64,000 nt of DNA, taken from Paenibacillus herberti. GTDB taxonomy: Bacteria; Bacillota; Bacilli; Paenibacillales; Paenibacillaceae. The translations under genes were made by a program, and so were the position numbers. The DNA is taken from NCBI RefSeq assembly GCF_002233675.1, contig NZ_NMUQ01000002.1:248001-312000 (forward strand). The letters run 5' to 3'. Shown piece after piece: positions 9,619-12,182 of the stretch (positions are counted from its first letter, which is position 1; each line of letters begins with the position of its first letter). Below the pieces are notes generated by a model. It ran no database searches and was not told the origin of the DNA. It saw only the letters and a list, made by a program, of their open reading frames with translations.

Positions 9619-9855
9619 TCGTTTTCCGCCTCCCTGAACTCATTTAAACCGCTTTCTAAACTTGCCAAGTCATATGCTTTACCGCTATCCATTTTAACGG
9701 AAATGACGCCGCACCGCTACCTGCCTGGAACATCTGCAGCCAATCCAGTTCGGCAGCTCCTTGCAATGGCCTTGAAAGTTGGGGCGAGACCGTCCGAAGC
9801 AGCATCAATCGACGATCCAAGCCCCAGCCCCCAGCCTGTCCCATGCCAAAAAAGA

Positions 9856-10527
9856 TTAATTGCCTTTGGCGTCGCGGTATGCCTTCATATAAGCCTCCGC
9901 CTGGCGCTCGATATGGGTGAAGTCACCGGTTTTGACCGCTTCCTTCGTCAGATCTCCACCGATGCCGATGGCTATAGCCCCCGCCTTCACCCATTCCGAC
10001 AGATTGCCGAGCGACACGCCGCCGGTTGGCATCACATTCGCTTGCGGCAGTGGACCTTTGATCGCGGAAACGATGCTTGGTCCATACACGCTGCCCGGGA
10101 ACAGCTTCACGATGTCCACACCAAGCTCAAGCGCGCTCTGAATTTCCAGAATTGTCATCGTGCCCGGCATGACCGGGACCGCATAACGGTTGCACAGTTG
10201 AATCGTTGCCGGGTTAAGCGCAGGAGCAACGACGAATTCGGCTCCAGCCAAAATAGCGGCGCGTGCCGTCTCTGGGTCCAGCACTGTGCCGACGCCCACG
10301 ATTGCATATTGCTCTGAAGAAGGATCAGCCTTGCTCGAAAATTCCGCCGCAAGCTGCTCAATGGCACGCAACGCACCCGGTACCGTCATTGTAATCTCAA
10401 TCGCCTTAATGCCGCCTTTGATCGCATGGCGAGCCATGCGCGCTACTTCGTCCGCGGAGTCGGCGCGAAGAACCGCTACCACTCCCGCATCCACAACGGC
10501 TTGGGTCACTCTTAGTTTATTCAGCAT
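9856..10527 (-). CDS. eda: 2-dehydro-3-deoxy-phosphogluconate (KDPG) aldolase
   Basis: Cleaves KDPG to pyruvate and glyceraldehyde-3-phosphate (Entner-Doudoroff and uronate catabolism). The 223-residue TIM barrel shows the catalytic Glu in AIEITMTVPGALRAIE, GAEFVVAPALNPATI, and the Schiff-base Lys in DIVKLFPGSVYGPS, followed by MPTGGVSLGNLSEWVKAG. The ATG at 10525-10527 was chosen over an upstream in-frame start because AGGAGGAG lies nine bases before it. No kdgK or uxa genes adjoin, so which sugar acid feeds it is unclear. The 237 bases between it and fumC show nothing recognisable. Confidence 0.92.
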   Translation of the reverse strand: MLNKLRVTQAVVDAGVVAVLRADSADEVARMARHAIKGGIKAIEITMTVPGALRAIEQLAAEFSSKADPSSEQYAIVGVGTVLDPETARAAILAGAEFVVAPALNPATIQLCNRYAVPVMPGTMTILEIQSALELGVDIVKLFPGSVYGPSIVSAIKGPLPQANVMPTGGVSLGNLSEWVKAGAIAIGIGGDLTKEAVKTGDFTHIERQAEAYMKAYRDAKGN

Positions 10528-10711
10528 GTCTGCACTCCTCCTAGGATTACCGGCAAGAGACCGCATTTCAGTTATTCACATAGCTCTCAGCCGTTTGGAC
10601 CGTTTTCGGTCCTATTTATCAACCTAACAACGCGCAGCTGTCGCTAACAAGCGGTGCTGCAACCGGAAACATTGTCTCACCTGACGCTATCAGGGTCAAC
10701 CGTTTCGCGCT

Positions 10712-10917
10712 TGTGGATAAACCTGAATCCATACGAAAAAGTCCTCCCTTTTCGAGGAAGGACTTCTATAAGTTATCCACAGGGGGACAACCGAAATTTA
10801 AATCCTGTTTTCTCCACATCCTGCTCAGTCGTTGCGCCGTAAAGCATCCACTTATCCGCAGGGGCATGTGGATAATGTGGATATCTTTTGTGTATATGTG
10901 GATACAACTGTGGATAA
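10712..10917. promoter_or_regulatory. DnaA-box cluster
   Basis: Four perfect DnaA boxes TTATCCACA occur at 10712-10720 (-), 10773-10781 (+), 10867-10875 (-) and 10909-10917 (-). Four more have one mismatch: 10810-10818 (+), 10852-10860 (+), 10876-10884 (-) and 10897-10905 (-). Eight boxes in 206 bp is far above chance. No dnaA, dnaN, rpmH or gid genes and no obvious AT-rich unwinding element adjoin, so an origin-distal DnaA-binding cluster is likelier than oriC. Confidence 0.85.
10735..10766 (-). terminator. Terminator of the map-like gene
   Basis: AAGTCCT (10739-10745) pairs with AGGACTT (10759-10765); read leftward the stem is followed by TTTTTCGTAT. It lies within the DnaA-box cluster, 160 bases after the aminopeptidase stop. 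Confidence 0.7.
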
Positions 10918-10926
10918 ATGAAATAC

Positions 10927-11673
10927 CTACAAACAGGTCAAAATAATTGGGCCTTGCTCGGTTACGGCAATCGTATGCTCAAACTGCGCTGACCAGGAGC
11001 GGTCGCGCGTGCGCGCCGTCCAGCCATCGCGATCCAGCCAAATCTCTCCCCCACCCGTCGTGAGGATCGGCTCAACGGTCAGCACCATGCCAGCTTCCAG
11101 CCTCACGCCGCTGCCGGACAGACCAGAATTTCCGACCTCCGGGTTCTCATGAATGGCGCGGCCAATCCCATGCCCCGCAAAGCTTGTCACCACGGAATGA
11201 CCAGACTGCCTTGCCGACTGCATGACCGCTGCGCCGATGTCGCCGATCCGTCTTCCGATCCGGCATTCCGCAATACCGCGCAACATAGCCTGTTTGGCTC
11301 CCTCCAGCAGCCTTGCGGCGGTCGGCTGGGGACGCCCGATAGAGTAAGTCCAGGCGGAGTCCGCTTTCCACCCGTCTACATCCGCCACCATGTCGATCGT
11401 GACCATATCCCCTTCCTGCAGGGGAATCGTGTCCGGGAAACCATGGCAGACGACCTCGTTAACGGAGGCGCAGGTGGCGTAAGGATAACCTAAGTATCCT
11501 TTTTGTGCCGGCCAGGCTCCCCGCTCGGCCATCAAACGCTCCACAAAACGGTCGATCTCCTGCGTAGTAACGCCTGGAGCTATCCGTTTTGCAATAGCCT
11601 CATGGCATTCCGCTACAACCTGCCCCGCCCTGCGGATGCGTCTGATCTCTTCTTCCGATTTCCATTCTGCCAT
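10927..11673 (-). CDS. map: Type I methionine aminopeptidase
   Basis: Removes initiator Met from nascent proteins; a 248-residue pita-bread metalloenzyme. Metal ligands are visible in DMVTIDMVADVDGWKADSAWT (two Asp), SFAGHGIGRAIHENPEV (His), GMVLTVEPIL (Glu) and AQFEHTIAVTEQGP (Glu). The substrate-positioning His is in NEVVCHGFPD. It is not beside secY, adk and infA, so it is likely a second copy, like the extra Map of B. subtilis. GGAGGTGG precedes the ATG. Unusual neighbour: the DnaA-box cluster directly downstream. Confidence 0.92.
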   Translation of the reverse strand: MAEWKSEEEIRRIRRAGQVVAECHEAIAKRIAPGVTTQEIDRFVERLMAERGAWPAQKGYLGYPYATCASVNEVVCHGFPDTIPLQEGDMVTIDMVADVDGWKADSAWTYSIGRPQPTAARLLEGAKQAMLRGIAECRIGRRIGDIGAAVMQSARQSGHSVVTSFAGHGIGRAIHENPEVGNSGLSGSGVRLEAGMVLTVEPILTTGGGEIWLDRDGWTARTRDRSWSAQFEHTIAVTEQGPIILTCL

Positions 11674-11771
11674 GTTGCCACCTCCGCATCCCTTATAGAC
11701 TTAGTACATCTTATTCAGGGTCAACGCTGTCCATAACTAGGGATGCGAGAGAGCGCTTCAAATCAAAATCT

Positions 11772-11810
11772 AAAAAACCTTTCATCGGCCCTTAAGCCAA
11801 TGAAAGGTTT
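11772..11810 (-). terminator. Terminator of the 121-residue hypothetical gene
   Basis: AAACCTTTCAT (11775-11785) pairs with ATGAAAGGTTT (11800-11810); leftward the stem runs into TTTTTTAG. Confidence 0.85.
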
Positions 11811-11816
11811 CTGTGG

Positions 11817-12182
11817 TTAAAGAATAATATTGATTACAGTACCACCTAGTGACCGGGCAGGGATAACTGTGGAACCATAGAACGTACCCGATACGCCACC
11901 ATACACTTCTACTCTATAAGCAACCGTCGAAGGATTAGAAATATTCGGGAAAATAGCGATCCCGTTCTCGGCAAACCGTACCGATGTTAACGCAACATTG
12001 GTATTTACCAAAAATATCCTGGCTATGAAATTCGGTGTTCTAGAAAGTGTTCCATTTCGATTGATTAAAACGACCGTAAAATTGGGGAAAGCATTTGCAG
12101 AAGAATCGCCTCCTCCATTACCACCTGGATAACATTGAGGCCTTCTATCACATCCGCAATTTTTAACTTCCAGCTTTTTCAT
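11817..12182 (-). CDS. Hypothetical Cys/Gly-containing small protein
   Basis: 121 residues, no family recognised. The N-terminus is charged and cysteine-bearing (MKKLEVKNCGCDRRPQC, then PGGNGGGDSS). The rest is beta-prone and rich in Val, Ile, Asn and Thr, without a signal peptide or membrane helix. The composition is AT-richer than neighbours. An excellent AAGGAGGAG sequence precedes the ATG and a clean terminator follows, so it is a real monocistronic gene. Size, CxC motif and beta-rich body resemble small spore-surface proteins, but this is a guess. Confidence 0.65.
   Translation of the reverse strand: MKKLEVKNCGCDRRPQCYPGGNGGGDSSANAFPNFTVVLINRNGTLSRTPNFIARIFLVNTNVALTSVRFAENGIAIFPNISNPSTVAYRVEVYGGVSGTFYGSTVIPARSLGGTVINIIL

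Follow-up and report, generated by a model that had tools for sequence, protein, structure and literature searches.

The DnaA-box cluster described here lies between map, which encodes an M24 methionine aminopeptidase, and eda, which encodes a KDPG/KHG aldolase, within a window of 64,000 nucleotides (the whole stretch of DNA that was analysed, G000:C7:248001-312000) from a genome of 5.41 Mb assembled in 17 contigs. The placement between these two genes, as given in the preliminary description, is confirmed by their Pfam matches (Table 1). Both genes are carried on the minus strand, which puts the cluster downstream of map and upstream of eda, and the stop codon of map is separated from the first box by 9 bp. 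The cluster consists of nine DnaA boxes between positions 10712 and 10917, four of which are perfect copies of TTATCCACA and five of which are one mismatch away from TTATNCACA. An earlier count of eight boxes in 206 bp follows from matching against TTATCCACA, from which ATATACACA differs at two positions, and becomes nine when TTATNCACA is used. The four perfect boxes lie at 10712, 10773, 10867 and 10909. In 402 first-order Markov simulations of the 64 kb the maximum for any 206 bp was four boxes, reached in two of the 402 runs, against the nine that are present in the real sequence. The single-strand fold of the cluster region is stronger than that of shuffled sequences (z -3.99), for which the inverted boxes together with the terminator would be a sufficient account. 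A structured RNA at the cluster was dropped as a candidate since positions 9700-12000 gave zero Rfam matches at gathering score, and a phage origin was dropped because 10567-10930 has no match in phage records by blastn at a distant setting.

Table 1. Features of the map-eda interval, in window coordinates
Feature	Position	Strand	Remarks
eda, KDPG/KHG aldolase	9856-10566	-	Pfam PF01081; conserved start is the ATG at 10527 (MLNKL)
Outlying box TTATTCACA	10572-10580	+	within the eda leader
eda promoter-like TTGACC-17-GACAAT	10671-10699	-	TTGAC and GACAAT invariant in 7/7 map-eda genomes
Box TTATCCACA	10712-10720	-	perfect; 12 bp upstream of the eda -35
Intrinsic terminator-like hairpin and T run	10742-10760	-	3' of map, inside the cluster
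Inverted box TTATCCACA	10773-10781	+	perfect
Inverted box TTCTCCACA	10810-10818	+	one mismatch from TTATNCACA
Inverted box TTATCCGCA	10852-10860	+	one mismatch from TTATNCACA
Array box 5 TTATCCACA	10867-10875	-	perfect; abuts box 4, 9-bp step
Array box 4 ATATCCACA	10876-10884	-	one mismatch from TTATNCACA; 13-bp step from box 3
Array box 3 ATATACACA	10889-10897	-	one mismatch from TTATNCACA; one-base overlap with box 2, 8-bp step
Array box 2 GTATCCACA	10897-10905	-	one mismatch from TTATNCACA; opens the first box pair
Array box 1 TTATCCACA	10909-10917	-	perfect; head-to-tail array
map, M24 methionine aminopeptidase	10927-11673	-	Pfam PF00557

An orthologue of map, judged as such from flanking genes and identity, is present in all eight genomes of the genus including the one studied here (71-100% identity), the closest named relatives of this map being those of Paenibacillus pasadenensis (identities of 90 and 82% in two records) and P. 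humicus (77%). In each of the eight the matched map frame is followed by five to nine boxes within about 222 bp; the frame is ten codons longer in G004 and G001, where the first box, which is degenerate, falls within its last codons. Three genomes (G003, G006 and G004) have a single perfect TTATNCACA each within the cluster. When the seven genomes that have both map and eda at the locus are aligned, the boxes and the eda promoter appear as islands amid diverged sequence. With box columns defined on G000 and non-box columns taken as those between map and the eda -35, 51 of the 80 box columns are invariant against 11 of the 147 non-box columns, for which the Fisher test gives p of about 2e-19, a value that serves as a guide only since neither columns nor genomes are independent; in the 5' portion of the eda coding sequence 114 of 180 columns are invariant. 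Taken singly, the four more distant genomes are 70-78% identical in the box columns and 31-37% identical in the non-box columns. The cluster is thus real and conserved within the genus, and is a known kind of site.

At the core of the conserved arrangement are two head-to-tail box pairs with steps of 8-9, 13-14 and 9, which are recognisable in all eight genomes, with one of the four paired boxes degenerate in G004 (array box 4) and likewise in G001 (array box 3). In the seven aligned genomes array box 1 reads TTATCC(A/C)C throughout, the GGATAA half of the box at 10852-10860 (on the other strand) is invariant, and the context of the inverted box at 10773-10781, read on the other strand as TCCCC-N-TGTGGATAA, is found in all seven with one base off in G004. 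The inverted box at 10810-10818 is in the same place only in G000, G007 and G005. The outlying box occurs in G000 alone among the eight genomes and so is unlikely to belong to the conserved site.

The most diverged of the genus genomes, G002, separates the array from eda. Here map still lies between a CheR/PAS gene and fumC, and eda is absent from the 18 kb of the locus; a gene for a YdjM-type membrane protein converges on map, and the array is located between both 3' ends, where its last box falls within the terminal part of the ydjM-like frame. Neither neighbouring gene therefore starts at the cluster, and the inverted box and the array come in a different order from that of the other seven genomes. 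The persistence of the array here, where the locus lacks eda, means that it does not need an adjoining eda.

The cluster is found on the same contig as dnaA at a distance of 628 kb, which maps its position relative to oriC and bears out the earlier remark that it lies away from replication genes in so far as dnaA is concerned. In the four other genomes where map and dnaA share a contig, map is about 620 (G007), 589 (G001), 683 (G006) and 602 kb (G002) from dnaA, as calculated from coordinates and with G001 and G006 taken as circular. In all five it is on the upstream side of dnaA, at approximately 10-12% of the contig; conserved gene order alone would give such similar distances, which are therefore not independent evidence. 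The rnpA-dnaA-dnaN-recF locus of G000 has the standard layout of an origin with boxes flanking dnaA on both sides, and its dnaA-dnaN region carries a DnaA-trio (TAGx3) and an AT-rich stretch before dnaN. The whole genome contains 64 perfect copies of TTATCCACA, whereas the reversed pattern occurs 14 times. When the surroundings of all 64 are scored per 250 bp (two for TTATNCACA and one for a one-mismatch box), a scan which is blind to clusters without any perfect TTATCCACA, the map cluster ranks as the highest region with a score of 13. Of the two halves of oriC, the one upstream of dnaA scores 12 and the dnaA-dnaN half 6, so that summed they exceed the map cluster; they are followed by leuA (10), tadA (10), atpC (8), a polysaccharide-deacetylase gene (8), nrdI (7) and sda (6), with the next best at 4. 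The recovery of oriC and of the sda region indicates that the scan picks out plausible DnaA sites.

Beyond the genus the picture is different, and the conservation expected among relatives extends to all eight genomes of the genus and to none of the 11 map loci or 23 eda loci outside it. The relatives belong to what we take to be the family Paenibacillaceae and the order Paenibacillales, and the loci compared are the best protein matches of genome searches as opposed to a random sample. The 11 map loci of other genera (L004-L014, ten labelled Paenibacillus and one Priestia) are 49-66% identical, two near 50% possibly being paralogues, and none has a box score above 3; L001-L003 are taken to be the same contigs as those of G005, G004 and G003 and are counted once. 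The remaining 66 of the 80 map matches (L015-L080) come from other bacteria, have a best box score of 4 and were not used for conclusions. A match to eda is found in 67 of 78 family genomes, and among the best 30 of the 67 (seven in the genus and 23 outside) the 23 loci of other genera show, over 800 bp upstream of eda, at most two one-mismatch boxes, no perfect box and no cluster. In five of these 23 (L195, L197, L203, L205 and L206) map adjoins eda, and four of the five then have fumC. To judge from these loci, map and eda probably adjoined each other before the cluster arose between them in this genus; a gain is the simplest reading, with loss in the other genera as the alternative. Nor does the cluster accompany map-type genes in general, a possibility that was rejected because 22 loci of the genus with weaker M24 matches (30 given minus the eight orthologues) also score at most 3 and have no cluster, as do the 11 map loci of other genera.

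It is considered somewhat probable that the site is a chromosomal DnaA-box cluster which binds DnaA and acts mainly at the level of the DNA, as a reservoir that competes with oriC. Binding of DnaA is predicted from the match of the boxes and their conservation, and titration with its effect on the timing of initiation is likewise putative. The likeliest function is one at the DNA level because the cluster is kept without eda, lies at a 3' end and outscores every other single cluster found in the genome. In such a scheme the cluster would bind free DnaA in competition with oriC; lying to the left of oriC by approximately 10-12% of the chromosome, it would be replicated soon after initiation, and two copies of the cluster in place of one would make the local sink twice as large and so help to delay re-initiation.

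Among known systems a titration site like those of B. subtilis is the most likely kind for the map cluster. The DnaA-box clusters (DBCs) of B. subtilis outside oriC (Okumura et al. 2012) are described as numerous near-consensus boxes packed into a short segment remote from oriC, with several such sites per genome, and the present genome agrees in each respect (PMC5295017, PMC13220808, PMC4447404). Two marks of a DBC, boxes that are clustered outside oriC above chance and a site that is kept in relatives, are both observed here, the latter in all eight genomes of the genus. The B. subtilis clusters occupy other places; map, eda and tadA are not among the names given for the top 20 of 269 regions bound in vitro (Table 1 of PMC4447404), which include ywcI, gcp/ydiF, trmE/jag, ywlC, sda and yydA. 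Of these, the gcp/ydiF site is downstream of both its neighbours, like the array of G002 (PMC4447404). B. subtilis lacking six such clusters is reported to initiate early, an effect that becomes strong only with the loss of the whole set and is partially relieved when one is restored (PMC5295017, PMC13220808), which implies that a single deletion in the present genome may show little. A statement in PMC5295017 also holds that the B. subtilis clusters play no significant role, which it contrasts with E. coli. No DnaA-box cluster of this kind from Paenibacillus was met in the open-licence literature that was searched. The control of DnaA in B. subtilis-like bacteria, without Hda, datA and DARS, is described as unsettled (PMC13220808), and the probable gain of a cluster at the level of a genus with later conservation of its boxes offers a natural before-and-after pair for asking whether chromosomal DnaA sinks set the timing of initiation.

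The main rival to titration is that DnaA functions here as a transcription factor, with the boxes activating or repressing the promoter of eda and perhaps of fumC and thereby coupling carbon metabolism to the level of DnaA. An effect on map had been suggested as well; regulation of map as the main role is judged unlikely since the cluster is downstream of this gene. For eda the suggestion is more tenable, as the promoter-like elements TTGAC and GACAAT are invariant in seven out of seven genomes and in each of them a box ends 4-14 bp upstream of the -35 in varying orientation (gaps counted by hand). There is also precedent in B. subtilis, where DnaA activates sda directly and appears to repress ywlC and others, according to PMC4447404, in which the sda region is among the strongest DnaA sites. 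The promoters of the sda type resemble the present site in having box clusters next to them, and G000 itself has boxes upstream of its own sda. However, the map-side array is located far upstream of the eda promoter, approximately 140-175 bp from the -35 in the seven genomes, and in G000 it is beyond the map terminator as seen from that promoter. Although a box does lie near the promoter, as would be expected of a DnaA-regulated gene, the cluster does not follow eda: G002 keeps the array with no eda at the locus, and eda lacks an upstream cluster at all 23 loci of other genera. Control of eda is therefore possible in view of the box near the -35, but it is not the whole explanation, and as an alternative to titration it is regarded as unlikely. 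Titration by the cluster and control of eda by DnaA may both be true.

Far less likely is an element resembling datA or DARS, in which the array would assemble DnaA and alter its nucleotide state beyond merely holding it. The ordered pairs with a repeat distance of 21-23 bp and the conserved inverted partners appear more ordered than would be required of a simple sink. In E. coli, datA is a box cluster away from oriC which lowers DnaA activity, and is in this respect comparable to the titration that is supposed here; it works with IHF and promotes ATP hydrolysis, which are features described for datA (PMC5295017). DARS1 and DARS2 are conserved non-coding DnaA sites at kept distances from oriC (PMC5010248, PMC4585315), a likeness to the map cluster by description, and the reactivation of DnaA is a feature of DARS. 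B. subtilis, however, is described as having neither datA and DARS loci nor homologues of IHF and Hda, and is not known to have a regulator of the nucleotide state of DnaA (PMC13220808). A functionless accumulation of boxes, by chance or as a relic, is more improbable still: clusters do differ between genera, but the box columns are conserved above their surroundings and the nine boxes exceed the simulated maximum of four. A cryptic or second origin of replication, to which a box number rivalling that of oriC might point, is rejected with hardly any probability left to it, since the DnaA-trio and the AT-rich unwinding element that accompany the boxes of an oriC are not found at the cluster (the TAG-trio is absent from eight out of eight cluster regions and A+T in 40 bp reaches at most 72.5% as against 80% at dnaA-dnaN, a difference that is modest on its own) and since the rnpA-dnaA-dnaN-recF locus already provides the standard layout.

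Compared with the reservoir that competes with oriC, a broader proposal is rather doubtful. It holds that the order runs layered DnaA sinks, an old one at tadA and others gained within lineages at map, atpC and leuA, and that in this genus the map array, taken as two box pairs about two helical turns apart, now ranks with the strongest DnaA sites of the chromosome and might be an assembly platform that changes the activity of DnaA in addition to serving as a passive sink.

The other clusters of the genome differ in how widely they are distributed. The cluster upstream of tadA (L180:1298-1549, at about 1021.4-1021.7 kb of G000:C7; L146:1552-1730 in G002) was found at every tadA locus examined in the order, which amounts to 54 genomes, each with a score of at least 6. 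These comprise 30 of 30 family loci and 30 of 30 order-level loci (the best 30 of 76 and the best 30 of 119 matching genomes, with 300 bp scored in both sets and seven genomes shared), together with G002, in which tadA was recognised by eye; 50 of the genomes are of the same family, in 11 genera, and four are from two other families. As a control, 22 of 23 atpC loci of other genera score at most 4 by the same scoring. Where a single contig carries both tadA and dnaA, as in five of the genus genomes, the tadA cluster is situated downstream of dnaA at a distance of 114-146 kb. It is possibly an old DnaA-box cluster of this order, and its order-wide presence makes it a comparison site for the map cluster; the main text of PMC4447404 does not name tadA/yaaJ, and to judge by titles no paper on a cluster at tadA came up in the open-licence literature.

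A cluster downstream of atpC (L113:1803-2003; L127-L131) occurs in five of the eight genus genomes, with G003, G006 and G002 being the exceptions, and outside the genus in one of 23 loci (L250). The cluster at the 3' end of a second leuA (L112:2801-2970; L135-L140) is found in all six genomes that have this leuA, and in G001 and G004 only a paralogue of the cluster-bearing gene was found. Five boxes lie about 500 bp upstream of nrdI (L187:1406-1520), at the 3' end of the preceding gene, and the frame that follows nrdI resembles, by eye, the large chain of ribonucleotide reductase; these boxes may hint at control of nucleotide supply by DnaA. A further five boxes precede the polysaccharide deacetylase gene (L181:1418-1600), and four are located upstream of the conserved part of sda (L185:1505-1603), a gene assigned by Pfam.
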